Source: an uncultured Phycicoccus sp.
GTDB lineage: Bacteria > Actinomycetota > Actinomycetes > Actinomycetales > Dermatophilaceae
NCBI RefSeq assembly: GCF_947495705.1
Contig: NZ_CANLZR010000001.1
Coordinates: 310,001-374,000, forward strand
Length of the DNA: 64,000 nt
Reading direction: 5' to 3'
Part shown: in pieces, positions 575-34,036 of the stretch
How positions within the stretch are numbered: position 1 is the first letter of the stretch
How the letters are laid out: each line of letters opens with the position of its first letter
The notes under the pieces: model-generated
The model's database searches: none
What the model was told of the DNA's origin: nothing
Seen by the model: only the letters and a program-made list of their open reading frames with translations
Translations under genes and position numbers: made by a program

Positions 575-2097
575 CCACGACGACCGCAGAGCCGACGCTC
601 TCCTTCGACGACGCGCTCGCGGCCTACGACCCCGCGATGGGGCTCGAGGTGCACGTCGAGCTCGGCACGAACACCAAGATGTTCTGCGGCTGCCCGACGG
701 AGTTCGGGGCCGAGCCCAACACCCAGGTGTGCCCGGTGTGCCTCGGGCTGCCGGGCGCGCTGCCCGTCGTCAACGAGGTCGCGGTCGAGTCGGCGATCCG
801 GATCGGCCTGGCGCTCAACTGCTCCATCGCGCCGTGGTGCCGGTTCGCCCGCAAGAACTACTTCTACCCGGACATGCCGAAGAACTTCCAGACCTCGCAG
901 TACGACGAGCCGATCGCCGTCGACGGGTACCTCGACGTCGAGCTCGAGGACGGGTCGACCTACCGGGTCGAGATCGAGCGAGCCCACATGGAGGAGGACA
1001 CCGGCAAGTCCCTCCACGTCGGCGGCTCCACCGGTCGCATCCACGGCGCCACCCACAGCCTCGTCGACTACAACCGCGCCGGGATCCCGCTCATCGAGAT
1101 CGTCACCAAGCCGATCCTCGGAACCCGCGAGCGGGCGCCCGAGGTCGCGAAGGCCTACGTCGCGACGCTGCGCGACCTGCTCAAGGCGCTCGAGGTCTCG
1201 GACGTGAAGATGGAGCAGGGCTCGATGCGCTGCGACGTCAACCTGTCGCTGAGCCCCGCCGGTGCCGGGACGCTGGGGACCCGCACCGAGACCAAGAACG
1301 TCAACTCGCTGCGCTCGGTCGAGCGGGCCGTGCGCTACGAGGTCGGCCGACACGCGGCGATCCTCGCGGGGGGCGGGTCGATCACCCAGGAGACCCGGCA
1401 CTGGCACGAGGACACCGGCATCACGACGTCCGGGCGGGTCAAGTCCGACGCCGAGGACTACCGGTACTTCCCCGAGCCCGACCTCGTGCCGGTCGCCCCC
1501 TCGGAGGAGGCCATCGAGGCCCTGCGGGCGACGCTGCCCGAGCCGCCCGCCGAGCGGCGCAAGCGGCTCCAGGCGGAGTGGGGCTACGGCGACCTCGAGA
1601 TGCGCGACGTCATGAACGCGGGCCTCGTCGACCTCATCGGCGCGACCGTCGCCGCCGGGGCGTCGCCGACCGCCGCGCGCAAGTGGTGGTCGGGTGAGAT
1701 CGCCCGCCGCGCCAACGGCGAGGGAGTGGACGTCCCGACCTACGCGTCCCGCCTCGGGGTCACCCCGGCACACGTCGTCGAGCTCGAGGGCCTCGTCACC
1801 GCCGGCCGGCTCAACGACTCGATGGCCCGCCAGGCCTGGGAGGGCGTCCTCGACGGCGAGGGCACGCCCACCGAGGTCGCCGACGCCCGCGGGCTCGAGC
1901 TCGTCCAGGACACCGGCGCCCTCGAGGCGGCGGTCGACGCGGTCATCGCGGGCAACCCGGACGTCGCCGACAAGATCCGCGACGGCAAGGTCCAGGCCGT
2001 CGGCGCGCTCATCGGCCAGGTGATGCGCGAGATGAAGGGCCAGGCCGACGCCGCCGCCGCCCGGCAGCTGATCCTGGCGCGCCTCGGCCAGTCCTGA
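571..2097 (+). CDS. gatB: Aspartyl/glutamyl-tRNA(Asn/Gln) amidotransferase subunit B
   Basis: GatB is the ATP-dependent kinase/transamidase subunit of GatCAB; it activates the mischarged glutamyl or aspartyl group and accepts ammonia channelled from GatA. At 508 residues it has the usual full length. The N-terminal cradle signature G-L-E-V-H-V-E-L begins near residue 24. A four-cysteine zinc-type cluster follows (C39, C41, C54, C57), and the C-terminal helical/YqeY-like tail ends in a Q-L-I-L-A-R-L pattern. The ATG overlaps gatA by four bases. gltX and a tRNA-Gln gene occur 40 kb downstream in this window, which fits the indirect Gln-tRNA route. Confidence 0.97.
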
Positions 2098-2137
2098 CCC
2101 GCCCCGCGGGGGAGCCGATCGGGTGCATGATCGGGGT

Positions 2138-2668
2138 ATGACCGTCGCCGCCCGTGACCGCACCCTCATCCTGCTCCGCCACGCGAAGGCCGAGGCGGAC
2201 AACCCCGACGGCGACCACGAGCGTGAGCTGACGGCGCGGGGCCGGCGCGACGCCACGGAGGCGGGCCGCTGGCTGCACGAGCACGGCATCGGCATCGACG
2301 AGGTCCTGTGCTCCAGCTCGGAGCGGACACTGCAGACCTGCGAGGCCGTGTGGGAGTCGGGCTGTCCCGAGGCCGAGGTCCGGCACGACCGGCGCATCTA
2401 CAACGCGAGCCCCGAGGCGATCCTCGACGCGATCCACGACGCGGACGACGACGCCGACATCCTCATGGTCGTCGGCCACGCCCCGGGCCTGCCCGCCCTC
2501 ACCGAGCTGCTCGCCGACGGCGAGGGGAGCGTCGAGGGGCACCGGGCGCTGGCCGAGGGCTTCGCGACCTGCGGGATCGCGGTCCTGCACTACTCGGGGC
2601 GGTGGGCCGACCTCGCGTTCGGCGATGCCCGGCTCGAGCGCTTCCACGTCGCCCGGTCCGAGGACTGA
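2138..2668 (+). CDS. SixA-type histidine phosphatase
   Basis: A 176-residue protein of the histidine phosphatase (phosphoglycerate-mutase-like) superfamily, small enough to match SixA phosphohistidine phosphatases. The catalytic R-H motif is at residues 14-15 (L-L-R-H-A-K), followed by the SixA-like E-L-T-A-R-G-R-R-D-A segment. A second histidine lies in V-V-G-H-A-P-G. I chose the ATG at 2138 over a GTG at 2123 because a CATGAT -10-like element ends six bases before it, as in other leaderless starts here, and because the extra residues would carry no domain. It follows gatB by 40 bases and may be partly co-transcribed. Its substrate is not evident from sequence. Confidence 0.85.
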   Translation: MTVAARDRTLILLRHAKAEADNPDGDHERELTARGRRDATEAGRWLHEHGIGIDEVLCSSSERTLQTCEAVWESGCPEAEVRHDRRIYNASPEAILDAIHDADDDADILMVVGHAPGLPALTELLADGEGSVEGHRALAEGFATCGIAVLHYSGRWADLAFGDARLERFHVARSED

Positions 2669-2672
2669 CTGG

Positions 2673-3593
2673 GTGAGCGAGGCCCCGGCGCCACGTCTGC
2701 ACGGGCATCGGGAGCCCGACCCTGCCCTGCGCCGCGACGCGGTGGAGATCACCGACCTCCTGTGGCGCATCGACGAGGCCGGGCGCAGGCTCCCGGTGCG
2801 CCGGTCCGAGGTGGTCGAGCGACTGCTCGCGAGCGGCCAGCGGAAGGCCGCCCGGACCGTCGCGCGGATGCCCGCCCGCGATGACGTGCTCGACGACGAG
2901 TGGGTCGACGCGCTCGGGATCCGTGTGCACTGCGAGCTGCAGCGGCTCGTCGAGGAGCTGCAGTTCCCCCGTCGGGTCGCAGCGCTGCTGGCCCCTCTTC
3001 TCGACGACCTCAGGGCGGGCGGCGGCGGCCCGGTCCGGGTCGTCGACCTCGGCTGCGGCCTCGGCTACGTCGTGCGGTCCCTCGCCCACCGGGGGCTGCT
3101 CGGCCCGGGCGTCGAGCTCGTCGGCGTCGACCTCAACCCCGTCCTCGTCGCGGAGGCCGACCGGCTCGCCCGCGCGGAGGAGCTCGACTGCCGTTTCGTG
3201 CACGGGGACGCGTTGCGGCCGGGCGTCGCCGTGGACGACCCCGCCCGCACGGTCGTCATCTCGAGCGGCGTGCTCCACCATCTGAGTCCGGAGTCGCTGA
3301 CCGCGCTCGCCAGGGCGGAGGCGGCGTTGGGCCTGGCGGCCTGGGCCCACTGGGACATCGCGCCGTGCGGGTGGTCGACCCTCGGCGCGTGGATCTTCCA
3401 CCAGGCCCGGATGCGCGAGCCGGTGTCGCGCCACGACGGCGTGCTGTCCGCCCGCCGGGCGCACCCCGCCGAGGTGCTCCTGGCGACGGCGCGCTCCGGG
3501 GCACCCGAGTACGACCATGCCGTCCACGAGGGGCCGCGCTGGCATCCGGCAGCCATCGACGTGGTGCGCCCCCTGGTGGGCATCCGCCGATGA
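2673..3593 (+). CDS. Class I SAM-dependent methyltransferase
   Basis: A 306-residue protein with a Rossmann methyltransferase core. The SAM-binding motif I is V-V-D-L-G-C-G-L-G-Y around residue 125, and a motif II aspartate follows in L-V-G-V-D-L-N-P. A post-core V-I-S-S-G-V-L-H-H-L segment is typical of methyltransferase motif IV/VI. About 110 residues of mostly helical sequence precede the core. The GTG at 2673, five bases after the upstream stop, is preferred because upstream codons look non-coding. It overlaps the next membrane-protein gene by ATGA. Substrate is unknown; nothing in the context fixes it. Confidence 0.75.
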   Translation: MSEAPAPRLHGHREPDPALRRDAVEITDLLWRIDEAGRRLPVRRSEVVERLLASGQRKAARTVARMPARDDVLDDEWVDALGIRVHCELQRLVEELQFPRRVAALLAPLLDDLRAGGGGPVRVVDLGCGLGYVVRSLAHRGLLGPGVELVGVDLNPVLVAEADRLARAEELDCRFVHGDALRPGVAVDDPARTVVISSGVLHHLSPESLTALARAEAALGLAAWAHWDIAPCGWSTLGAWIFHQARMREPVSRHDGVLSARRAHPAEVLLATARSGAPEYDHAVHEGPRWHPAAIDVVRPLVGIRR

Positions 3594-4141
3594 GGGTCGT
3601 CGCGGTCGCCTCGGCCCTTGCCGTGCTCGGCCTGCTCGACGGCGCGCTCGCCGGGTTCCGCTCGTCCCTGGGGCGCCGGGGCGCGGTCGAGCACCGGGTC
3701 CGCGACCGGGTGGCGGCCCGCCGCGGGCTGCTCCTCATGGGCGGCCTGCTGCTCCCCGTCGCAGTCGCCACCGGTCTGCACGCGCTCGCTCCGGGTCCGT
3801 GGCCGGCCGAGGCGTACGTGCGCGCGGGCACGGCCATGCTCGCCGTGTACCTCCCGTATGCGGTGGTGACGCTGCTCGCCCTGCTCGGGTACCTGGCCCT
3901 CGGCTGGCGGTGGGGGTACCTCGCCTCCGCTGTCATCCTCGGGCCGTTCACCCTGGTGCGGCCCCTCGTGGCAACGGCCGGAGTCGTCGCCGGCGCGGTC
4001 CGCGGCGACGACGGTGGCGTCACGGTGGGGTGCCTGCTCGCGCTCGGAGCCGTGCTCGCCGTCGAACCCCTGTCGGGGCGCCTGTGGTGGAGCGCCGGTC
4101 AGGGCGTGAGGTCGGTGGCGTCAGCCACCCAGCGCCAGTAG
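3590..4141 (+). CDS. Small multi-spanning membrane protein
   Basis: A 183-residue hydrophobic protein coupled to the upstream methyltransferase by an ATGA overlap. Three to five likely membrane segments are visible: residues about 2-22, 48-68, 78-108, 110-135 and 145-165, separated by Arg-rich loops. I do not recognise a family, and no catalytic motif is apparent. The 3' end overlaps the convergent SDR gene by 43 bases. That overlap could mean the true stop region is shared or that antisense interference occurs. Real coding is supported by the hydrophobic periodicity and the operon-type start. Confidence 0.65.
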   Translation: MRVVAVASALAVLGLLDGALAGFRSSLGRRGAVEHRVRDRVAARRGLLLMGGLLLPVAVATGLHALAPGPWPAEAYVRAGTAMLAVYLPYAVVTLLALLGYLALGWRWGYLASAVILGPFTLVRPLVATAGVVAGAVRGDDGGVTVGCLLALGAVLAVEPLSGRLWWSAGQGVRSVASATQRQ

Positions 4142-5124
4142 CGCGCCCGGTCGGTGTGGGTGGGTCGCGTGCCGGGGAGCACGGCCGTGGGCCGGGGGCG
4201 ACGGTCGTGCCAGAGGCGCCCGGAGGGCGGAGCGGATTCGGTGGCGAGGACCCAGGTCGTCGTGTCGGCGCCCCCCGCGTCCGAGCGCAGCACCGGCCGG
4301 AGCGCCCGGGAGAACGCCGGCAACGAGGCGTCGAGCCCGGGCGTGCCGGCCCAGCCCGGGTGCGTCGCATGGACGGACACCCCCCGGTCGGCCCAGCGGG
4401 AGGCGAGCACCGGCAGGAGCTCGACCTGACCGCGCTTGCTCCGGGCGTAGGCCACGGATCCGCTGTAGGACCCCTGGGTGTACTCGGGGTCGTCCACCGG
4501 CAGCCGCTGGGTGTACATCCCTCCCGAGGTCACGAGGACGACCCGACCCTCGTCGGCCTCGAGGGCCGGGAGGAGCCGTTCGGTCATCCGGACCGGGCCG
4601 AGCACGTGGAGGGCCTGGGTCAGCTCGTGACCCTGCGGCGACTCGGTGCGGCTCGGCGGCAGGGCGCCGGCGTTGTGGACGAGGCCGCGCAGCGGGCGTC
4701 CGTCGGCGAGGAAGGCCTCGACGAAGGCGTCGACGAAGGCGTCGACGGAGTCGAGGTCGGCGACATCGCACCGCCACACCCGCGCCGAGGCCGGGCTCCC
4801 GGTGGCGGCGCGTACCTCGTCGGCCACCCGCTCGCCCTTGCCGGTGTCCCGGACCACGAGGTGCACGGTGGCGCCGAGCGCCGCGAGGTCGAGCGCGGTC
4901 CGCCGGCCGAGGCCCGAGGAGGCCCCGGTGACCGCGACGTCGTGACCGGTCAGGCCACCCGGCGCGGGGTCCGCGGGCCACCCGGGCAGCCGTCGTCGGA
5001 CCGCGAGGCCGAGATGGGTGAATCCGGGGGCGACGGTGCGGTCCAGGAGGGTGTCGACGGCGCGGGCGAGGCCGAGGGCCACGGAGCGCGAAGGCGGTGC
5101 CGAACGGTCTCTCATCGTGTTCAC
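4099..5124 (-). CDS. Short-chain dehydrogenase/reductase (DHRS12-like)
   Basis: A 341-residue NAD(P)-dependent SDR. The dinucleotide-binding T-G-A-S-S-G-L-G sits at residues 66-73, N-A-G follows in L-V-H-N-A-G-A-L, and the catalytic pair is in Y-A-R-S-K. The roughly 60-residue N-terminal extension before the Rossmann fold and the H-P-G-W-A-x-T-P-G segment resemble the DHRS12-type subgroup rather than classical 250-residue SDRs (inference from family knowledge). A 12-base tandem repeat inside the gene produces a V-D-A-F-V-D-A-F-V-E-A-F stretch. An alternative ATG lies three codons downstream at 5115. The substrate is unknown. It is transcribed divergently from the fasciclin/SigK locus. Confidence 0.8.
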   Translation of the reverse strand: MNTMRDRSAPPSRSVALGLARAVDTLLDRTVAPGFTHLGLAVRRRLPGWPADPAPGGLTGHDVAVTGASSGLGRRTALDLAALGATVHLVVRDTGKGERVADEVRAATGSPASARVWRCDVADLDSVDAFVDAFVEAFLADGRPLRGLVHNAGALPPSRTESPQGHELTQALHVLGPVRMTERLLPALEADEGRVVLVTSGGMYTQRLPVDDPEYTQGSYSGSVAYARSKRGQVELLPVLASRWADRGVSVHATHPGWAGTPGLDASLPAFSRALRPVLRSDAGGADTTTWVLATESAPPSGRLWHDRRPRPTAVLPGTRPTHTDRARYWRWVADATDLTP

Positions 5125-5223
5125 TCACTGACGCTCTCGGTGGCCTGGTCACGACGAACCTACCCACGCGGTCCGGCGACGGGGACGGCGGTGCACGGCG
5201 CGGCGAACCGGGGCGTCGCGAGT

Positions 5224-5251
5224 GCATCCGCCCGGAGCCGCCGGGCGGAAG
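5224..5251 (+). promoter_or_regulatory. SigK-type promoter for fasciclin gene 1
   Basis: GCATCC at 5224-5229, sixteen bases, then CGGAAG at 5246-5251. The same GCATCC-N16-C(C/G)GAA pattern occurs before sigK and before the second fasciclin gene. It resembles the mycobacterial SigK consensus as I recall it (CCATCC, about 16-17 bases, CCGAAT). A start site near 5258 would give a 5' leader of about 45 bases. Confidence 0.7.
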
Positions 5252-5302
5252 CAGGGGTAGGTCGCAGCGCCGCGACCCCCACCTGTGAGAGAGGACCCTC
5301 TG

Positions 5303-5941
5303 ATGTCGCTTCGTCGCTTCGGTCTCGCCACGGCCGCCCTCGGGCTCGCCACCGCCCTCATCGCCCCGTCCGCGATGGCCGGCACGACGCCGGGGGAGCG
5401 CAGCCTGGCCGCCGTGCTCACCTCCGACGGCAACACCTTCGACCGCAACTGGTACGACTACGACCTCGTCACCGAGGCCGTGCTCGCCGTCCTCGAGGAG
5501 AACCCGGACAGCGCGGTCGGCGTGCTGACGGACGGCAGCGTGCCCCTGACCGCCTTCATCCCGAACGACCGCGCGTTCCAGGTGCTCGTGCGTGACCTCA
5601 CGAAGCGCTGGTACACCTCGGAGTCGCGGGTCTTCAGTGCCCTCGTCGACGCCGTCGGGGTCGACGGTGTCGAGCAGGTGCTGCTCTACCACGTGGTCCC
5701 GGGCGCCACGCTCACGAAGAAGGACGCCGTGGCCGCCAACGGTGCGGTGCTGCCGACCGCCCAGGGCGGCACCATCACGGTGAAGGTCTACGACCGGTCC
5801 GTCCCGATCGTCGTGCTCCGCGACAAGGACACCGACGACGTCAACCCCTTCCTCAACCCGCGGGCCCTGGACATCAACGCGGGGAACAAGCAGATCGCGC
5901 ACGGCATCGTCTTCGTCCTGCGCCCGTTCAACCTCCCCTGA
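5303..5941 (+). CDS. Secreted fasciclin (FAS1) domain protein 1
   Basis: A 212-residue exported protein with one FAS1 fold, a domain used in adhesion and matrix interactions. The N-terminus is a classical Sec signal: M-S-L-R-R, then a hydrophobic core to about residue 22, with A-M-A as the likely cleavage site at residue 26. FAS1 hallmarks are the T-A-F-I-P-N-D-R-A-F segment near residue 80, the L-L-Y-H-V-V-P-G segment, and a C-terminal I-A-H-G-I-V-F-V-L. The ATG at 5303 is preferred over the GTG at 5285 because a GAGAGAGGA ribosome site precedes it. The SigK-type promoter and the adjacent sigK-rskA pair recall the mycobacterial MPT70/MPT83 regulon, whose products are also FAS1 proteins. Confidence 0.88.
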   Translation: MSLRRFGLATAALGLATALIAPSAMAGTTPGERSLAAVLTSDGNTFDRNWYDYDLVTEAVLAVLEENPDSAVGVLTDGSVPLTAFIPNDRAFQVLVRDLTKRWYTSESRVFSALVDAVGVDGVEQVLLYHVVPGATLTKKDAVAANGAVLPTAQGGTITVKVYDRSVPIVVLRDKDTDDVNPFLNPRALDINAGNKQIAHGIVFVLRPFNLP

Positions 5942-5968
5942 GCGCGTCCGACCGCTGAGCCCGCCGCT

Positions 5969-6010
5969 GCTGCCGGGCTCCCCACCCGCCGGGTCGGGGA
6001 GCCCGGCAGC
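5969..6010 (+). terminator. Hairpin terminator after fasciclin gene 1
   Basis: Perfect 15-bp stem: GCTGCCGGGCTCCCC at 5969-5983 pairs with 5996-6010, and the 12-base loop holds a further ACCC/GGGT pairing. There is no U-run, as is common for actinobacterial terminators. It separates the fasciclin gene from the sigK promoter. Confidence 0.75.
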
Positions 6011-6038
6011 CGAGCCTTCGACAGGATCCGGGCCGGCT

Positions 6039-6066
6039 GCATCCAGCAGCGGGGTCCGCACCGAAC
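6039..6066 (+). promoter_or_regulatory. SigK-type autoregulatory promoter of sigK-rskA
   Basis: GCATCC at 6039-6044, sixteen bases, then CCGAAC at 6061-6066. This is the closest of the three sites to the mycobacterial SigK consensus. It implies that the sigma factor drives its own operon. A start near 6073 gives a leader of about 45 bases before the GTG at 6119. Confidence 0.72.
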
Positions 6067-6118
6067 CCCAGATGGAGAACATCCGACCGAAGCCCGGACA
6101 TCGACAGGAGGGGCCACC

Positions 6119-6793
6119 GTGCACCACGCCACAGCCGTCACGCTGCTGCGCCCTCCCGCCCCGGCGCCGGGGGCCTACCGCATGTCCCTGCGGCTCGGCC
6201 CTATCGTGAGACACGTGCACGCAGAGCAGGAGACCGAGGCGGCCGCGATGGCCGACCTCGCGGAGCGGCTGCGCGACGGCTCCCGGGAGGCCCTGGAAGA
6301 GGCCTACGCCCGGTGGTCCTCACTCGTGCACACCCTGGCGGTGCGGTCGCTCGGCAACCACCACGACGCCGAGGACGTGACGCAGCAGGTGTTCGTCGCC
6401 GCATGGCGCGGGCGCCACACGCTGCGCCCCGACCGGGGCACCGTCCCCGGCTGGCTCGTCGGCATCACGCGGCACAAGATCGCCGACCTGCACGCCGCCC
6501 GGGCCCGTCAGGTGCGCGATCTCGGCGCTGCGGCGACCCGCGCGCTGCCCGACCAGCAGGCCCCACCCCCGGACGAACAGCTGGCGGCGCGGCTCCTCGT
6601 GGCCGACGCGCTCGACCAGCTCGGGGAGCCCCGGCGGACCGTCGTGCGGCTGGCCTTCATCGAGGACCTCACCCACGAGGAGATCTCGCGCCGCCTCGAG
6701 CTGCCGCTCGGCACCGTCAAGAGCCACGTCCGCCGAGGACTCATCCACCTACGACACCGAATGGAGGACGTGCACCGTGAACCATCCCGATGA
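6119..6793 (+). CDS. sigK: ECF RNA polymerase sigma factor, SigK-like
   Basis: A 224-residue extracytoplasmic-function sigma factor that directs RNA polymerase to a small regulon. Region 2 is visible in D-A-E-D-V-T-Q-Q-V-F-V-A-A-W around residues 84-97. Region 4 follows as R-T-V-V-R-L-A-F-I-E-D-L-T-H-E-E-I-S-R-R-L with the L-G-T-V-K-S-H helix. The GTG at 6119 follows a strong AGGAGGGG site at good spacing; later ATGs at 6182 or 6248 would shorten it. The assignment to the SigK type rests on the overlapping RskA-like anti-sigma gene, the FAS1 neighbours and the promoter motif. It is held inactive by the product of the next gene (family knowledge). Confidence 0.85.
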   Translation: MHHATAVTLLRPPAPAPGAYRMSLRLGPIVRHVHAEQETEAAAMADLAERLRDGSREALEEAYARWSSLVHTLAVRSLGNHHDAEDVTQQVFVAAWRGRHTLRPDRGTVPGWLVGITRHKIADLHAARARQVRDLGAAATRALPDQQAPPPDEQLAARLLVADALDQLGEPRRTVVRLAFIEDLTHEEISRRLELPLGTVKSHVRRGLIHLRHRMEDVHREPSR

Positions 6794-26231: not shown

Positions 26232-27809
26232 CTACGGGCGGCCGACCTCGTCCTCGCGACGGGCGTCGGCCTCCCGGTCGGTGACGTCGTAGCCCTCGGT
26301 CTCGGGGTGCGCGCCGTGCATGCCGCGGGACAGCGCGTACTCCTCCTCGGGGGAGAACACGAGGTGGTGCCGGCCGCGGATCGCGAAGTAGGCGAGGCCG
26401 ATCGCGAAGAAGACCGCGACGCCGACGATGACCGAGCGATAGTCCGGGTTGAACGGCAGGATGATGAGCGTCCCGAACGAGATGACCCCCGCGGCGACGG
26501 CCCCGCCGACCCCGACCGGGCTGCGGTACGGCCGCTCGGCGGTCGGGAAGTTCCGGCGCAGCAGCACGAAGGCGACCATCTGCAGCACGTAGGAGATGAC
26601 CGCGCCGAAGACCGCGATGTTGAGCAGCTGCCCGGCCACCACGACCGTCGCGTCGTAGGCGCTCTCGCCCGGCTCGTTGCGCAGCAGCGTCAGGAGCACG
26701 ACGAGGAAGACGCCGATGGTGGCCCCGGCGAGCAGCGCCACGTAGGGGACCTTGCGGCTGCCGGTGAGGGACAGGGCCTTGGGGTAGTAGCCGGCCCGCG
26801 ACAGCGAGTACAGGTTGCGCCCGGCCGCGAACATGATCCCCTGGAAGGACGCGACGAGACCGGCGAGCGCGAACAGGGCGAGCAGCGAGGCGATGCTGCT
26901 GTTGGGGAAGATGGCCCGGAAGCCGTCCAGGATCGGCTCGCCGCTGCCCGAGATCTTCTCGGCGCCGACGACGCCGGGGTTGAGGACGAGGACGAGGAAG
27001 GCCGTCGTGAGCAGGGTGAACATGCCCATGAGCGAGCCGCGCGGGATGTCCTTCTGCGGCGTGTGCGTCTCCTCGGCCGCCAGGGGGAGCTCCTCGATGC
27101 CGAGGAAGAACCAGATGGCGAAGGGCAGGGCGGCGAGCACGCCGCCGGTGCCGAACGGCAGGAAGCTGCCGTCGCCGACGTCGAAGAGGTTGTCGAACGA
27201 GAACTTCCCCGAGGTCACCGCCAGCACGGAGAAGAGCGCCAGGACCGCCAGGGAGATGACCGCGATGACGACCGCGAACTTGAACGACGCCGCGGCGCCG
27301 GCGGAGTTCAGGCCGACGAAGATGACGTAGAAGACGATGACCCACAGCCACAACGGCATCGAGAAGCCGATGAGGTCCTGGGTGATGGCATCGGCGTAGG
27401 TGCCGGCGAACACGCCCACCACCGCCGTCGTGATGACGTACTCGATGGACTCGGCCAGCCCCGTGACGAAGCCGCCCCACGGGCCCATCGCCGACCGGGC
27501 GAAGGAGTAGGCGCCCCCGGTGTGCGGCATGGCCGCCGACATCTCGGCGATGGAGTAGACCATGAGCAGGTACATGAGGCCGATGACGACCGTGGCGATG
27601 AGCATGCCGCCCCACCCGGCCTCGCCGATGCCGAGGTTCCAGCCGGAGAAGTCGCCGGAGATGACCGCGGCCACCCCGAGCGCCCAGAGCGACCACGCGC
27701 CCGCATGGCGGGTGAGCCCACGCTGCTCGAAGTAGCTCGCGTCGGCGTGGGCGTAGGTGACGCCCGAGGTGGTGCGGGCGGGCCGACCGCCCGAGGGGTT
27801 CTGCGACAC
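26232..27809 (-). CDS. APC-family permease, ethanolamine-permease-like
   Basis: A 525-residue amino-acid/polyamine/organocation permease with about twelve membrane helices. The N-terminal region (G-V-A-A-V-I-S-G-D-F-S-G-W-N, then Y-S-I-A-E-M-S-A-A-M-P-H-T-G-G-A-Y-S-F) is close to the ethanolamine permease subgroup, as I recall it. The W-F-F-L-G-I-E-E-L-P-L-A-A-E-E block is another subgroup feature. The GTG at 27809 follows GAGAGGA on the minus strand and gives a family-like N-terminus; the frame stays open far upstream but lacks domain content there. It is divergent from the GntR-led cluster, implying import of the amine that cluster degrades. Confidence 0.82.
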   Translation of the reverse strand: MSQNPSGGRPARTTSGVTYAHADASYFEQRGLTRHAGAWSLWALGVAAVISGDFSGWNLGIGEAGWGGMLIATVVIGLMYLLMVYSIAEMSAAMPHTGGAYSFARSAMGPWGGFVTGLAESIEYVITTAVVGVFAGTYADAITQDLIGFSMPLWLWVIVFYVIFVGLNSAGAAASFKFAVVIAVISLAVLALFSVLAVTSGKFSFDNLFDVGDGSFLPFGTGGVLAALPFAIWFFLGIEELPLAAEETHTPQKDIPRGSLMGMFTLLTTAFLVLVLNPGVVGAEKISGSGEPILDGFRAIFPNSSIASLLALFALAGLVASFQGIMFAAGRNLYSLSRAGYYPKALSLTGSRKVPYVALLAGATIGVFLVVLLTLLRNEPGESAYDATVVVAGQLLNIAVFGAVISYVLQMVAFVLLRRNFPTAERPYRSPVGVGGAVAAGVISFGTLIILPFNPDYRSVIVGVAVFFAIGLAYFAIRGRHHLVFSPEEEYALSRGMHGAHPETEGYDVTDREADARREDEVGRP

Positions 27810-28013
27810 GCTGACCGTCCTCTCGTCAGGGCCACGGCCCGCCGGGCCGGGGTGCGGCCGTGGGGCGCCGATCACCGTCGGACGGTGCACGACTGGGCCG
27901 AACTTTTCGGAGGTTAGACCCGCCAGGCGGCTCTCGTCCATAGGTTGAGCGCGACAAAGGTGTGGACTCGCACCATTTGACAGCGGTACCGGCCGCGCCG
28001 GAGACTCACGCCC

Positions 28014-28742
28014 ATGACCGCGCAGCCGCACCTGCAGCTCGTCGAGACGGTGCTGCGTCCGGCGCGCGGGACCAACGTCTTCGAGTCCACGGTGGAGCAG
28101 CTCGCGACGGCGATCCGGCTCGGGGTGCTCGTCGACGGCGACCACCTGCCGCCCGAGCGCGAGCTCGCGGACCGGCTCGGGGTCGCCCGCAACACCCTGC
28201 GCGACGCCATCGCCGCGCTCCGTGACGCGGGGTTGGTCCAGACCCGCCGCGGCCGCGGCGGGGGCACCGTCGTCACCTACGCCGGGCCGTCGGTCGCCCC
28301 GGCCGAGGGGCCGCGCCCCCGGGTGGGGATCGCCCTCGCCGACGCCCTCGACTTCCGACGGGTCGTCGAGCCGGGGGCCGCCCGCCTCGCCGCGCTCCAG
28401 CCGATCAGCGGGGAGCAGCGGGCCGGGCTCGTGGCGGCCGTCCAGGACGTCCGCGCCGCGGACGGCGACAGCGCCCATCGGCTGGCCGACAGCCGGCTGC
28501 ACCTGGCGATCGCGACCGCCTCGGGGTCGCCGATGCTCGTCGAGGCGGTGACCCGGGCCCAGTCCGCGCTCGGCGAGCTGCTCGCGGCGATCCCCGTCCT
28601 GCGCACGAACATCCAGCACTCCCACGACCAGCACGACGCCATCGTCGATGCCATCCTGTGCGGGGCGGCCGACGCGGCCCGCTCGGCCATGGAGGAGCAC
28701 TGCGACGCGACGTCGGCGCTGCTGCGTGGCTTCATCGGATGA
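28014..28742 (+). CDS. FadR-type GntR transcriptional regulator
   Basis: A 242-residue regulator with an N-terminal winged helix-turn-helix and a C-terminal FCD ligand domain. The DNA-binding part shows L-P-P-E-R-E-L-A-D-R-L-G-V-A-R-N-T-L-R-D-A-I-A-A-L at residues ~43-67, the GntR signature. The FCD part has E-P-G-A-A-R-L-A and metal-type histidines in H-R-L-A-D-S-R-L-H, H-S-H-D-Q-H and E-E-H-C. TTGACA (27977-27982) and GAGACT (28001-28006), with 18-base spacing, end seven bases before the ATG, suggesting a leaderless start. It lies between the permease and the ligase gene and is the likely local regulator, with the amine or a gamma-glutamyl product as inducer (inference). Confidence 0.88.
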   Translation: MTAQPHLQLVETVLRPARGTNVFESTVEQLATAIRLGVLVDGDHLPPERELADRLGVARNTLRDAIAALRDAGLVQTRRGRGGGTVVTYAGPSVAPAEGPRPRVGIALADALDFRRVVEPGAARLAALQPISGEQRAGLVAAVQDVRAADGDSAHRLADSRLHLAIATASGSPMLVEAVTRAQSALGELLAAIPVLRTNIQHSHDQHDAIVDAILCGAADAARSAMEEHCDATSALLRGFIG

Positions 28743-28756
28743 CCGGGAGGACGACC

Positions 28757-30142
28757 ATGCCGAGCTCCATCCACCGCGGCGGACCGCCACAGCTGACCCT
28801 CGAGCAGCTGCGCGCCGACATCGCCGACGGCACGGTCGACACCGTCATCGTCGCGTTCACCGACATGCAGGGCCGGCTCCAGGGCAAGCGGCTCCACGGC
28901 GCGTACTTCCTCGACCACGTCCTCGAGGCGGGCACCGAGGGGTGCAACTACCTGCTCGCCGTCGACGTCGACATGAACACCGTCGGCGGGTACGCGATCT
29001 CGTCCTGGGAACGCGGCTACGGCGACATGTTCTTCGACATCGACCTCGACACCCTGCGCCGCACCCCGGGGCACCCGGCCTCGGTGACGATCCAGAGCGA
29101 TCTCTCGTGGCTCGACGGCACCGGCGAGGTGCTCCAGTCACCCCGCAGCATCCTCAAGCGGCAGGTCGCCGCCGCCGCCGACGGGGGCTGGGCCGCCTAC
29201 GCCGGCACCGAGCTCGAGTTCATCCTCTTCGAGGACTCCTACGAGCAGGCCTGGGACCGCCGCTACCAGGGGCTCACCGGCGCCAACCGCTACAACGTCG
29301 ACTACTCCATCCTCGGCGGCAGCAAGGTCGAGCCCGTGCTGCGCGAGGTGCGCAACGAGATGTACCGCGCGGGGATGACCGTCGAGTCGGCCAAGGGCGA
29401 GTGCAACTTCGGGCAGCACGAGATCGGGTTCCTCTTCGACGACGTGCTCCGCACCTGCGACAACCACACCGTCTACAAGACGGGGGCCAAGGAGATCGCG
29501 GCCCGGCACGGCCAGTCCCTGACGTTCATGGCGAAGTTCGACGAGCGCGAGGGCAACTCGTGCCACATCCACCTGTCGCTGCGGGGCACCGACGGCGCCG
29601 TGGTCTTCGCCGACGACGAGCGCGAGGGGGGCCGGTCCGCGCTGTTCGACCACTTCATGGCCGGGATCCTCGCCACGATGCGCGAGCTCACGTACTTCTA
29701 CGCGCCGAACATCAACTCCTACAAGCGGTTCGCCGCCGGGTCCTTCGCGCCCACCGCGGTGGCCTGGGGCACCGACAACCGGACCTGCGCGCTGCGCGTC
29801 GTCGGGCACGGCGCGGGGCTGCGGGTCGAGAACCGGGTCCCCGGCGGCGACGTCAACCCCTACCTCGCGGTGGCGGCCATGATGGCCGGCGGGCTCCACG
29901 GCATCCGGGAGCAGCTGGCCCTGCCGCCGAGATGCGACGGCAACGCCTACGTCGGTGACTACGACCACGTCCCGACGACGCTCGCGCAGGCCCGCGACCT
30001 GCTCGCCACGAGCGAGGTCGCGCGGGCCGCGTTCGGCGACGAGGTCGTCGACCACTACGTCAACGCCGCCGACGTCGAGATCGCCGCGTTCGACGCCGCG
30101 GTCACCGACTGGGAGCGGGTCCGAGGATTCGAGAGGTTGTGA
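28757..30142 (+). CDS. Glutamine-synthetase-like gamma-glutamyl-amine ligase
   Basis: A 461-residue ATP-dependent ligase of the glutamine synthetase superfamily (PuuA / GlnA3-GlnA4 group), expected to join glutamate to an amine such as ethanolamine or a polyamine. Visible blocks: F-T-D-M-Q-G-R-L-Q-G-K-R near residue 34, Y-A-G-T-E-L-E-F-I-L-F (metal glutamates), G-N-S-C-H-I-H-L-S-L in place of the ammonia-type N-G-S-G-M-H-x-H, and the R-V-E-N-R-V-P-G-G-D-V-N-P-Y end block. GGGAGG precedes the ATG at 28757; another ATG at 28739 overlaps the regulator stop. Genes for permease, ALDH, SDR and gamma-glutamyl hydrolase nearby argue strongly against housekeeping glutamine synthesis. Confidence 0.85.
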   Translation: MPSSIHRGGPPQLTLEQLRADIADGTVDTVIVAFTDMQGRLQGKRLHGAYFLDHVLEAGTEGCNYLLAVDVDMNTVGGYAISSWERGYGDMFFDIDLDTLRRTPGHPASVTIQSDLSWLDGTGEVLQSPRSILKRQVAAAADGGWAAYAGTELEFILFEDSYEQAWDRRYQGLTGANRYNVDYSILGGSKVEPVLREVRNEMYRAGMTVESAKGECNFGQHEIGFLFDDVLRTCDNHTVYKTGAKEIAARHGQSLTFMAKFDEREGNSCHIHLSLRGTDGAVVFADDEREGGRSALFDHFMAGILATMRELTYFYAPNINSYKRFAAGSFAPTAVAWGTDNRTCALRVVGHGAGLRVENRVPGGDVNPYLAVAAMMAGGLHGIREQLALPPRCDGNAYVGDYDHVPTTLAQARDLLATSEVARAAFGDEVVDHYVNAADVEIAAFDAAVTDWERVRGFERL

Positions 30143-30152
30143 GCACCCCACG

Positions 30153-31538
30153 ATGAGCACCACCACGCACGACGTCATCGACCCCGCCACCGAGGAGGTC
30201 GTCACGACGATCGACCTCGCGGGGGTCGAGCAGACCGACGCCGCCGTCGCCCGCGCCGTCGAGGTCGGTCCCGCCTGGCGCGCCGTGAGCCCGGCGGACC
30301 GCGGCATGCTCCTGCGCCGGTTCGCCGACGCCGTCGAGGAGCACCGCGAGGAGCTGGCGCGGCTCGAGGTCCGCAACGCCGGGCACACCATCGGCAACGC
30401 CCGCTGGGAGGCGGGCAACGTCGTCGATGTCCTGCGCTACTACGCGGCCGCCCCGGAACGTCTGTTCGGGCGGCAGATCCCCGTGGCCGGCGGGCTCGAC
30501 GTGACGTTCAAGGAGCCGCTCGGCGTCGTCGGGATCATCGTGCCGTGGAACTTCCCGATGCCGATCATGGGCTGGGGGATGGCCCCCGCGCTGGCCGCCG
30601 GCAACACCGTCGTCCTCAAGCCGGCCGAGCTCACCCCCCTCACCGCCATGCGGATCGGCGAGCTGGCCCTCGAGGCCGGGATCCCCGAGGGCGTCCTCAC
30701 CGTGCTGCCCGGCGCGGGCCGGGTCGTGGGCGGGCGCTTCGTCACCCACCCCGACGTCCGCAAGGTCTGCTTCACCGGCTCGACCGCCGTGGGCCAGGGG
30801 ATCATGCGCGGGGCCGCCGAGCACCTCAAGCGGGTGACGCTCGAGCTCGGCGGGAAGTCGGCCAACATCGTCTTCGCCGACGCCGACCTCGACAAGGCCG
30901 CCGCCGCCGCCCCGATGGGCTTCCTCGACAACGCCGGCCAGGACTGCTGCGCCCGGACCCGGATCCTCGTCCAGCGCTCGGTGTACGACGCGTTCATGGA
31001 GCGGTTCGAGACCGCGCTCCAGGACGTCGTGGTCGGCGACCCCGGCGACGAGGCCACCCAGATGGGCCCGCTCGTCAGCGCCCGCCAGCGCGAGACGGTG
31101 CGCGGCTACGTCGACGGCACCGGCGGGCACGACGCCGTCGACGTCGCCTTCCGCGGCACGGCCCCCGAAGGGGCCGGCTGGTGGTACCCGCCGACCGTCG
31201 TCCTCCCGGGCGGCACCCAGGACCGGATCTGGCACGAAGAGGTGTTCGGGCCGGTCGTGGCGGTGCTGCCGTTCGAGGACGAGGCGGACGCCGTCGCCAA
31301 GGCGAACGACACGGCGTACGGCCTCGCCGGCTCCATCTGGACCCGGGACGTCGGGCGGGCGCTGCGCGTCGCGCGCGGCGTCGAGGCCGGCAACCTCTCG
31401 GTCAACAGCAACAGCGCGGTGCGCTACGCCACCCCGTTCGGCGGGTTCAAGGCGAGCGGGCTCGGCCGCGAGCTCGGGCCGGACGCCCTGGACGCGTTCA
31501 CCGAGGTGAAGAACGTCTTCATCTCCACCGACGACTGA
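30153..31538 (+). CDS. NAD(P)-dependent aldehyde dehydrogenase
   Basis: A 461-residue ALDH superfamily enzyme. The cofactor region contains I-V-P-W-N-F-P-M and K-P-A-E-L-T-P-L-T-A. The catalytic Glu is in T-L-E-L-G-G-K-S-A-N, and the nucleophilic Cys is in N-A-G-Q-D-C-C-A-R-T-R, where two adjacent cysteines occur. In the Puu and ethanolamine routes an ALDH oxidises the gamma-glutamylated aldehyde, which is the role I infer. The ATG at 30153 lies ten bases after the ligase stop, so the genes are co-transcribed. The length is slightly short for the family (usually ~480-500) because the N-terminus is trimmed. Confidence 0.88.
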   Translation: MSTTTHDVIDPATEEVVTTIDLAGVEQTDAAVARAVEVGPAWRAVSPADRGMLLRRFADAVEEHREELARLEVRNAGHTIGNARWEAGNVVDVLRYYAAAPERLFGRQIPVAGGLDVTFKEPLGVVGIIVPWNFPMPIMGWGMAPALAAGNTVVLKPAELTPLTAMRIGELALEAGIPEGVLTVLPGAGRVVGGRFVTHPDVRKVCFTGSTAVGQGIMRGAAEHLKRVTLELGGKSANIVFADADLDKAAAAAPMGFLDNAGQDCCARTRILVQRSVYDAFMERFETALQDVVVGDPGDEATQMGPLVSARQRETVRGYVDGTGGHDAVDVAFRGTAPEGAGWWYPPTVVLPGGTQDRIWHEEVFGPVVAVLPFEDEADAVAKANDTAYGLAGSIWTRDVGRALRVARGVEAGNLSVNSNSAVRYATPFGGFKASGLGRELGPDALDAFTEVKNVFISTDD

Positions 31539-31594
31539 CCGTCGCGGACCACTCACCCCACCCACCCCACCAACCCACCAACCAAGGAGTCACC

Positions 31595-32362
31595 GTGGCA
31601 GGCAGGATCGCGGGCAAGGTCGCCGTCGTCACCGGCGGATGCTCGGGCATCGGGCTGGCGACCGTCCGCCGGTTCGCGCAGGAGGGGGCGAGCGTCGTCG
31701 TCGCCGACCTCGCCGACGACACCGGCGAGGCGCTCGCGGCCGAGATCGGCGGCACCTACGTCCACTGCGACGTCGCCGACAAGGCGGACGTCGACCGGCT
31801 CTTCGCGACGGCGCTCGAGCGGTACGGCCGGGTCGACATCGCCTTCAACAACGCGGGGATCAGCCCGCCCGAGGACGACTCGATCCTCGACACCGACCTC
31901 GAGGCCTGGCGCCGGGTGCAGGAGATCAACCTCACCTCGGTCTACCTCTGCTGCAAGGCCGTGCTGCCGATCATGATCGAGCAGGGCTCCGGCTCGATCA
32001 TCAACACCGCCAGCTTCGTCGCGGTCATGGGGGCCGCCACCTCCCAGATCAGCTACTCGGCGTCCAAGGGCGGCGTGCTGTCGATGACCCGCGAGCTCGG
32101 GGTGCAGTTCGCCCGGCAGGGGGTGCGCGTCAACGCCCTGTGCCCGGGGCCGGTCAACACCCCGCTGCTCCAGGAGCTCTTCGCCTCCGACCCGGAGCGG
32201 GCGGACCGGCGGCTCGTCCACGTCCCGATGGGGCGCTTCGGCGAGCCGGAGGAGATGGCCAACGCCGTGCTGTTCCTCGCCTCCGACGAGTCGAGCTTCA
32301 TGACGGCGTCGACGTTCCTCGTCGACGGCGGCATCTCGGGCGCCTACGTCACGCCCCTGTGA
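31595..32362 (+). CDS. SDR oxidoreductase (putative alcohol dehydrogenase step)
   Basis: A 255-residue classical SDR. Cofactor motif V-V-T-G-G-C-S-G-I-G-L-A near residue 10, F-N-N-A-G-I-S in the middle, catalytic Ser in the N-T-A-S-F-V-A block, and Y-S-A-S-K-G-G for Tyr/Lys. The C-terminal segment L-V-D-G-G-I-S-G-A-Y is typical. The GTG at 31595 follows an AAGGAG ribosome site; an AC-rich stretch fills the gap after the ALDH gene. In E. coli Puu the corresponding position is a flavin amine oxidase (PuuB). A dehydrogenase instead fits oxidation of an alcohol such as gamma-glutamyl-ethanolamide (inference). Confidence 0.86.
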   Translation: MAGRIAGKVAVVTGGCSGIGLATVRRFAQEGASVVVADLADDTGEALAAEIGGTYVHCDVADKADVDRLFATALERYGRVDIAFNNAGISPPEDDSILDTDLEAWRRVQEINLTSVYLCCKAVLPIMIEQGSGSIINTASFVAVMGAATSQISYSASKGGVLSMTRELGVQFARQGVRVNALCPGPVNTPLLQELFASDPERADRRLVHVPMGRFGEPEEMANAVLFLASDESSFMTASTFLVDGGISGAYVTPL

Positions 32363-32369
32363 GGCGTCG

Positions 32370-33125
32370 ATGAGCGCCCGGCCCGTCGTCGGCATCACGT
32401 CCTACGTCGAGGACATCGACCGCGCGCCGTGGGTCGGCCAGCGCAGCGCCGTGCTGCCGCACCGGTACGTCGCGCAGGTCGAGGCCGCCGGCGGCATCGC
32501 GGTGGTGCTGCCGCCGCGGCCGGACGTCGACGACGACCTGGCCCGAGCGGTGCTCGCCCGGGTCGACGCCCTCGTCATCGCCGGCGGTGCGGACCTGCAG
32601 GCGGGCCTGTACGGCGAGCCGGCCCACCCGTCCTCGCAGGCGCCCCGTCCGGACCGGGACGCGTGGGAGACCGCCCTCGTCCGGGCGGCCGAGGCCCAGG
32701 ACGTGCCGGCGCTCGGCATCTGTCGTGGGATGCAGGTGATGGCCGTCGCGACCGGCGGGCGTCTCGTGCAGCACCTGCCCGACGAGGTCGGGCACGACGC
32801 GCACAGCCCACGCCTCGGGGTCTACACCTCACACCACGTGACCCCGGTGGCCGGGACGAGCCTCGCGCGGATCGTCGGCGACGGGCCGCTCGACGTCCCG
32901 ACGTACCACCACCAGGCGGTCGTGCCCGAGAGCATCGCCGGCAGTGGCTGGGTGCCCGCGGCGTGGCACGAGGACGGCACGCTCGAGGCGATGGAGTGGC
33001 CCGCGGCGCGCTTCCGGCTCGCCGTCCAGTGGCATGCCGAGGAGGCCGAGGGCGCGGAGCTCTTCGCGGCTCTCGTCAGCGCCGCTGCCGACGCTGCTGC
33101 CGACGGGGCGCGCGGACGGCCCTGA
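32370..33125 (+). CDS. Class I glutamine amidotransferase-like gamma-glutamyl hydrolase (PuuD family)
   Basis: A 251-residue peptidase C26 enzyme expected to remove the gamma-glutamyl group from the oxidised product. The nucleophile is Cys118 in A-L-G-I-C-R-G-M-Q. The catalytic His-Glu pair is in A-V-Q-W-H-A-E-E, where families usually have Q-W-H-P-E. The N-terminal V-V-G-I-T-S-Y and A-G-G-A-D block match PuuD-type enzymes. It begins seven bases after the SDR stop and is the last gene of the cluster. Its 3' end overlaps the convergent hypothetical gene by 50 bases. The exact substrate depends on the amine used by the pathway. Confidence 0.85.
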   Translation: MSARPVVGITSYVEDIDRAPWVGQRSAVLPHRYVAQVEAAGGIAVVLPPRPDVDDDLARAVLARVDALVIAGGADLQAGLYGEPAHPSSQAPRPDRDAWETALVRAAEAQDVPALGICRGMQVMAVATGGRLVQHLPDEVGHDAHSPRLGVYTSHHVTPVAGTSLARIVGDGPLDVPTYHHQAVVPESIAGSGWVPAAWHEDGTLEAMEWPAARFRLAVQWHAEEAEGAELFAALVSAAADAAADGARGRP

Positions 33126-33951
33126 CGGTCTCGGGCCAGCGGAGCCGGCCGGCGGGCGTCGAGGTGAGCCCGGACCCCCGGGTCAGGCCGCGCGCGGCCA
33201 GCCCCTCGCGCACGTCGTCCCGGTGGGCGGCCGAGCCGGCGAGGCGCTCGGCGATAGCCGACGGGTCCTCGTGGTCGGTGTGCGGGAGGCCCTCGTCACG
33301 GAGCGCCCCGAGGACCTCGGGCTGGGGGAGGAGCCGGCGGCCGTGGACGGGCAGGCTCAGGACCCCGCCGCTCGCCTCGTACACGTGGTACCGCGCGGGA
33401 CGCAGCCCCCCGGCCAGCACGAGCGGGTAGCGCGTCCCGGTGAGCTCGACCCGGTCGTAGTGGGGCTCGGTGGCGTCGATGGCGGCGAGCTGGTGGTCGT
33501 CGAGCAGCTGGAGGACGACCGGAGTGCGGGCGCGGGACCGGTGCACGGGCGCGGCCGGCACGTAGCCGCCGCGGGAGACGTAGGCGGTGTGCCCGACCGC
33601 CAGGTGGCGCACCACCCCGGTCAGGAGCGGCACGACAACGCCGATGCCGCGGCGGGTCAGCTTGTGGCGGACGACCGATGCGACGGCGTTGGACCCCACG
33701 GCGAGGACCGGCGTCCGCTCCGCGAGCGGGGTGGCGCCCAGCCGGCCCAGGAGCCGGTCCAGGGAGTCGGGCCCGGCGCCGGGCGGCAGGTCGCACCGGG
33801 CGCAGCCGTCGGAGCGGGCGGAGCCGAGGGAACGGGACGGCCGCGGGCGGACGGTGTGCGCGCAGTCCCCGACGACCAGGCGTGGCCCGGGAACGGGCAC
33901 GCCGGGGTAGGCGAGGGGGGTGCGGGTCAGGTCGCCGCCGTGGTCGCTCAT
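33076..33951 (-). CDS. Hypothetical protein with CxxC pair
   Basis: A 291-residue protein I cannot place confidently. Seen: a C-A-R-C pair near residue 45, a P-V-L-A-V-G-S-N-A-V-A-S segment at about residue 80, V-V-L-Q-L-L-D-D-H-Q-L-A-A-I-D-A-T-E-P-H-Y, and a Y-P-L-V-L-A-G-G block. The G-S-N start and later arrangement faintly recall gamma-glutamylcyclotransferase-like folds, but this is a weak resemblance. The tail is Arg-rich and overlaps the end of the gamma-glutamyl hydrolase gene by 50 bases. The ATG at 33951 is chosen; ATGs at 33963 and 33987 are alternatives. It may be unrelated to the amine cluster. Confidence 0.6.
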   Translation of the reverse strand: MSDHGGDLTRTPLAYPGVPVPGPRLVVGDCAHTVRPRPSRSLGSARSDGCARCDLPPGAGPDSLDRLLGRLGATPLAERTPVLAVGSNAVASVVRHKLTRRGIGVVVPLLTGVVRHLAVGHTAYVSRGGYVPAAPVHRSRARTPVVLQLLDDHQLAAIDATEPHYDRVELTGTRYPLVLAGGLRPARYHVYEASGGVLSLPVHGRRLLPQPEVLGALRDEGLPHTDHEDPSAIAERLAGSAAHRDDVREGLAARGLTRGSGLTSTPAGRLRWPETVRAVRAPRRQQRRQRR

Positions 33952-34036
33952 CGACCGCTCCATGCGTTGGGGGGGGTGTCGTCCCACTCATCAGGATACG
34001 CGCTGGCGCTCGATCGCCCTGGGGGAGAATGCGTGC

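Follow-up and report, generated by a model that had tools for sequence, protein, structure and literature searches.

A probable GlnA4-type gamma-glutamyl ethanolamine utilisation locus in the genome of an uncultured Phycicoccus sp.

The window analysed here is a 64,000-nucleotide stretch (positions 310,001-374,000 of contig NZ_CANLZR010000001.1; guanine plus cytosine content 72-77%) of the 3.54-Mb genome of an uncultured Phycicoccus sp. A cluster of six genes at its positions 26232-33125 is very probably a GlnA4-type gamma-glutamyl ethanolamine utilisation locus, which would turn ethanolamine into glycine, the substrate in the source organism being suggested by sequence comparison. A preliminary description of this DNA had listed a permease, a GntR regulator, a glutamine-synthetase-like ligase, an aldehyde dehydrogenase (ALDH), a short-chain dehydrogenase/reductase (SDR) and a PuuD-like hydrolase; all six were recovered, the permease gene divergent on the minus strand and the other five co-directional on the plus strand, and the enzymes retain their catalytic residues. 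The gamma-glutamyl route that it had proposed is supported by orthology to a Streptomyces coelicolor-like locus (identities of 62.3% over 462 columns for the ligase, 71.8% for the SDR and 65.8% for the ALDH) as well as by gene context.

In the proposed route, the permease would import ethanolamine and the ligase would couple it to glutamate with adenosine triphosphate (ATP), giving gamma-glutamylethanolamide, a reaction shown for the S. coelicolor enzyme. The SDR would oxidise the alcohol to an aldehyde, probably with nicotinamide adenine dinucleotide (NAD), the ALDH would convert the aldehyde to gamma-glutamylglycine, and the hydrolase would split the latter into glutamate and glycine. Since glutamate would act as a recycled carrier, release of free aldehyde or ammonia would be unnecessary, and nitrogen would exit as glycine without the intervention of an ammonia-lyase. 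The regulator is most likely a repressor that keeps the divergent promoters silent as long as neither ethanolamine nor a gamma-glutamyl intermediate is present; negative regulation by EpuRI has been reported for S. coelicolor.

Affiliation of the ligase

The preliminary description had mentioned a related first step by GlnA4 in Streptomyces, and this is borne out by Krysenko et al. 2019 (PMC6529630), in which S. coelicolor GlnA4 is a gamma-glutamylethanolamide synthetase with Km values of 0.47 mM for ethanolamine and 85.41 mM for glutamate; the route is repeated in a review (PMC9397018). In the search for a reference sequence, one primer from the former paper matched 12 of 392 Streptomyces-type genomes (pattern search). 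One of these, G526, carries at its locus L127 all six of the cluster primer sites tested, with no mismatch, and its GlnA4 residues agree with those quoted in that paper at 15 of 17 positions (D81 and D69 disagree). Judging from these primer sites and residue numbers, G526 appears to be either S. coelicolor itself or very closely related to it, and L127 stands in for SCO1613. The GlnA1, GlnA2 and GlnA3 labels used for G526 follow the S. coelicolor gene order, and are to be taken as our assumption.

The window ligase matches Pfam Gln-synt_C with 328.7 bits. Its likely start is the ATG at 28757, with GGGAGG 6 bases upstream, while the alternative ATG at 28739 overlaps the gntR stop codon; sequence comparisons were run on 28742-30142, and the residue numbers E270 and F335 follow that frame. 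Outside GlnA4, identities are uniformly low: 28.9% to GlnA2, 28.2% to GlnA1 and 24.6% to GlnA3 of G526, 28.7% to Escherichia coli PuuA, and 26.0 and 29.2% to the two other glutamine-synthetase-type proteins encoded in the same genome. The metal, glutamate and ATP residues given in the literature are kept in all 88 family members, the window ligase included. So are E269 and F331 of GlnA4 (E270 and F335 in the window ligase), which are found in none of GlnA1-3, PuuA and the genome's own two glutamine synthetases. The E327-flap position is occupied by F in the window ligase and GlnA4, and E stands in place of glutamine synthetase N264; GlnA1, GlnA2 and both of the genome's own glutamine synthetases have E at the flap position.

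A phylogeny of the ligase against GlnA3 and GlnA4, which the preliminary description had suggested, placed it in one clade with GlnA4 (Shimodaira-Hasegawa-like approximate likelihood ratio test support of 99). This tree was computed in quick mode from 39 of 95 sequences, and GlnA3 and PuuA were flagged as long branches of unsure placement. The best solved structure by sequence is 5dm3, titled Csal_0679 of Chromohalobacter salexigens. In a Foldseek search with a structure model (mean predicted local distance difference test score 79.9), used solely to obtain titled PDB relatives, the same entry came second after 11zs, a Brucella glutamine-synthetase entry. Among the matches listed, the closest relatives come from Intrasporangiaceae loci (Nostocoides, Phycicoccus), with up to 91% identity. 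Taken as a whole, these comparisons point to a GlnA4-type gamma-glutamylethanolamide synthetase, which would presumably use ethanolamine in the source organism as well.

Partner enzymes and conservation of the gene set

Related loci were counted among the best 80 of at least 582 confirmed relatives (L034-L113), so that the figures describe close relatives; counts over 81 include the window. The ALDH (Pfam Aldedh, 541.2 bits) has N133, E231 and C265 in 78 of 81 loci, the other three lying outside match coverage. The SDR gene has a GTG start preceded by AAGGAG, and its product exceeds the cut-off of its best NCBIfam model, PRK06057 (484.3 bits, cut-off 404); its best solved relative is 4wec. Residues D38, N112 and S140 of the SDR are present in 78 of 81 loci, and Y154 and K158 in 77, while in the hydrolase (Peptidase_C26, 190.5 bits) C118 is present in 77 and both H222 and E224 in 76; here too, the remainder lies outside match coverage. 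By analogy with their enzyme families, N112, S140, Y154 and K158 of the SDR, C265 and E231 of the ALDH, and C118, H222 and E224 of the hydrolase are taken to be catalytic, and D38 of the SDR presumably indicates NAD as cofactor. The GntR/FCD regulator is 45.0% identical to that of L127.

ALDH and SDR each accompany the ligase in 77 of the 80 loci, the hydrolase in 76 and gntR in 71. Two short loci, L074 and L085, stop right after the ligase and account for two of the three ALDH misses, two of the three SDR misses and two of the four hydrolase misses. Because these four genes are kept across the 80 loci, the cluster is no chance assembly. More broadly, of 296 genomes sampled from the class, 145 contain a ligase match at E <= 1e-100.

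The cluster resembles SCO1610-SCO1615 of S. coelicolor, in which related ligase, SDR and ALDH genes (62-72% identity) lie side by side with those for a GntR regulator and a hydrolase (45%), and for which the same reactions have been proposed: PMC6529630 assigns alcohol oxidation to SCO1611, aldehyde oxidation to SCO1612 and hydrolysis to SCO1615, with glycine and glutamate as products. The preliminary description was right to see a single locus as the source of the later steps, yet this was already in print, and since the whole route has been proposed from the same genes, the window cluster adds a good further instance to a system already known. The arrangement differs: at L127 the regulator and hydrolase genes lie on the opposite strand, unlike the five co-directional genes of the window, and neither of the two permease types discussed below has a relative within the 15 kb read, whereas the window has a divergent permease. 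According to the same paper, a permease is found in the clusters of other Streptomyces and none in that of S. coelicolor.

The same four reactions are also proposed, in PMC10132767, for an operon of C. salexigens and Phaeobacter, in which a tripartite ATP-independent periplasmic (TRAP) transporter and an RpiR regulator stand where the window has an APC permease and a GntR regulator. There, the matching Phaeobacter proteins are reported to rise on phosphorylethanolamine, and Csal_0678, whose number adjoins that of Csal_0679, is given as a homologue of an ethanolamine-binding protein.

Table 1. Features of the cluster, with positions in the window and the basis of each assignment
Feature	Position	Strand	Basis
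APC-type permease, nearest the TIGR00908 (ethanolamine permease) family	26232..27815	-	NCBIfam TIGR00908; Pfam AA_permease
Candidate operator GGTGTGGACTCGCACC	27959..27974	.	Motif GGTNTGRACNNNNACC; divergent promoter region, ~40 bp upstream of gntR
GntR/FCD transcriptional regulator, EpuRI-like	28014..28742	+	Pfam GntR + FCD
Probable GlnA4-type gamma-glutamylethanolamide synthetase (ligase)	28757..30142, alternative start 28739	+	GlnA4 identity, residues, tree
Aldehyde dehydrogenase, proposed gamma-glutamyl aldehyde to gamma-glutamylglycine	30153..31538	+	Pfam Aldedh
SDR, proposed gamma-glutamylethanolamide dehydrogenase	31595..32362	+	PRK06057
Class I glutamine-amidotransferase-like hydrolase (PuuD-like), proposed gamma-glutamylglycine hydrolase	32370..33125	+	Pfam Peptidase_C26

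Uptake slot, neighbouring genes and a candidate operator

Two types of permease are found beside the cluster, and never together. With the window permease and that of L034 as tblastn queries (E <= 1e-15), 10 of the 80 loci carry the window type, 56 the L034 type, none both and 14 neither; the chance of such zero overlap is ~1.2e-6, uncorrected for kinship. Matches to the L034 type are heterogeneous, 36 being at >=55% identity and 20 at 37-44%. NCBIfam models were run on five L034-type permeases (L034, L042, L057, L092, L094) and, from the ten of the window type, on those of Serinicoccus L065 and Ornithinicoccus L076, which score 507.9 and 514.5 on TIGR00908, above its cut-off. The window permease shares 44% identity with each of the latter two, and 38% and 40% with its counterparts in two Streptomyces clusters, L103 and L110 respectively. 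It is matched at E <= 1e-120 in one of 59 genomes of the family, namely the source genome itself; of the named loci, L037 has a counterpart at 83% identity and L039 one at 86%. No L034-type permease was found in the source genome at E <= 1e-40, in a search run without a positive control.

At L034 (positions 1105-6196), a TIGR00907-type permease gene, a choline/ethanolamine-kinase-like gene and a gene for a DAO-FAO_M-GCV_T fusion adjoin the ethanolamine cluster. Relatives of the kinase-like and DAO-GCV_T genes co-occur in 24 of the 80 loci (L034 and 23 others), in all 24 cases with the L034-type permease; their domains were scanned in L034 only and their distribution was established by tblastn. 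Neither gene was found at the window locus, where the permease slot holds only the TIGR00908-like permease, and DAO-GCV_T relatives occur elsewhere in the source genome at 47 and 37% identity. The TIGR00907 group includes choline transporters.

The operator candidate of Table 1 is a palindrome in the divergent promoter region. An initial search of the region in front of gntR, for palindromes and for 8-mers in common, yielded no convincing candidate, and the motif derives from a block conserved in the three sequences with the same permease arrangement (window, L037 and L039) together with a related 16-mer, GGTATGAACTCAGACC, which a scan with that block brought to light ahead of gntR in seven Nocardioides loci (L081, L101, L102, L104, L107, L108 and L111). 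The resulting motif GGTNTGRACNNNNACC occurs close to the 5' end of gntR in 16 of 81 sequences, with 16 sites in all, and once elsewhere in 1,213,716 bases, an enrichment that is post hoc, as the motif was built from sequences already seen, all of them kin. Several observations count against it: it lies near gntR in just 16 of the 72 gntR-bearing sequences, the scan gave no site at L034-L036, which are the closest relatives, no similar palindrome was found at positions 6900-7200 of L127, and the motif occurs nine times in the whole source genome, against once for a reversed control. GGTGTGGACTCGCACC is put forward as a candidate GntR operator.

The mutually exclusive permease types, the kinase-like and DAO-GcvT neighbours and the operator candidate are smaller new details. 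None was found in the literature, although permease exchange itself was never named in the searching; titles and abstracts yielded no publication linking dimethylglycine dehydrogenase, choline kinase, ethanolamine and Actinobacteria, and a term search found neither operator nor palindrome in the available text of PMC6529630. Taken jointly, they allow a tentative and rather doubtful reading, in which the ethanolamine cluster would be the core of a wider actinobacterial phospholipid-head-group module: its uptake slot would accept either a TIGR00908-type or a TIGR00907-type permease, kinase-like and DAO-GcvT enzymes would in many genomes feed the glutamyl route with N-methylated ethanolamines or their glycine products, GntR would act at a GGTNTG-N4-CANACC-like operator, and the window would hold a version whose uptake slot was replaced and whose extra enzymes were lost from the locus.

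Genes of amino-acid biosynthesis flank the cluster: to its left lie those for phosphoglycerate dehydrogenase, 3-isopropylmalate dehydrogenase and branched-chain aminotransferase, and to its right that for citramalate synthase. Two related loci, L043 (Nostocoides jenkinsii) and L045 (a metagenome-assembled actinomycete genome), have the ethanolamine cluster not after ilvE but between this gene and leuB. Downstream of the window cluster, an open reading frame at 33079-33987 on the minus strand has no match in Pfam (E <= 0.001) or NCBIfam (E <= 1e-20), and relatives of it at 40-70% identity are present in four Phycicoccus loci (L035, L036, L037 and L039).

Alternative readings and significance

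A number of observations weigh against the ethanolamine assignment. The models for SDR and ALDH are generic: PRK06057 is labelled '3-oxoacyl-ACP reductase', which points elsewhere, and the best NCBIfam label for the ALDH is an aminobutyraldehyde dehydrogenase, below cut-off. The hydrolase is only 27% identical to E. coli PuuD and 44.6% to that of L127, and scores 67.7 on the PuuD-type NCBIfam model against a cut-off of 266. The window permease reaches 370.9 bits on its best NCBIfam model, TIGR00908 'ethanolamine permease', slightly below the cut-off of 381.75, and 56 of the 80 loci carry the L034-type permease instead, of which the five scanned were labelled TIGR00907 'amino acid permease' with scores under that model's cut-off. 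Support in the source organism comes from sequence comparison, and for S. coelicolor, too, PMC6529630 and PMC9397018 give the steps after ligation as predictions. As a separate observation, the PRK06057 family may be misnamed, given that the SDR accompanies the ethanolamine cluster so regularly.

The same chemistry could serve a physiological substrate other than ethanolamine, be it a methylated form of it or a different small amino alcohol (N-methylethanolamine, alaninol or 3-aminopropanol). The kinase-like and DAO-GCV_T relatives would fit methylated head groups, and the permease slot is filled by two types; these extra genes are however not at the window locus, and S. coelicolor GlnA4 is reported as ethanolamine-specific in PMC6529630, so that we regard this option as unlikely. 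Far less probable, and rejected here, is that the ligase is a true glutamine synthetase with unrelated neighbours. Its best NCBIfam matches are indeed glutamate-ammonia ligases, every one of them below cut-off, but its flap residue is that of GlnA4, the source genome has two further glutamine-synthetase-type genes, and both ALDH and SDR travel with the ligase.

A Puu-type polyamine pathway would share the logic of ligation to glutamate, oxidation of the aldehyde and hydrolysis by a PuuD-like enzyme, and the ALDH is 39% identical to E. coli PuuC. The ligase, on the other hand, is distant from both PuuA and GlnA3, and the preliminary description had pointed out that a dehydrogenase takes the place of the amine oxidase PuuB: the SDR is present, no DAO domain, as expected of such a flavin-dependent amine oxidase, occurs among the six genes (PuuB was not searched elsewhere in the genome), and an SDR in that place suits an alcohol rather than an amine. 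We rejected this pathway as scarcely credible. The canonical Eut system, based on ethanolamine ammonia-lyase, has its substrate in common with the proposed route, and was likewise rejected: EutB had no match in the source genome, with a positive E. coli control (EutC was not searched), which indicates that the ammonia-lyase step is missing, unlike in Eut.

The GlnA4-type gamma-glutamyl route thus remains the preferred reading, and it extends the ethanolamine route of GlnA4 to an Intrasporangiaceae-type genome, with a gene set that related loci in numerous genera of actinobacteria have retained. The SDR, ALDH and hydrolase steps, predicted in the literature, would be easy to test on this conserved set. 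Generic labels such as 3-oxoacyl-ACP reductase may well hide a pathway that breaks down a common head group of membrane lipids.

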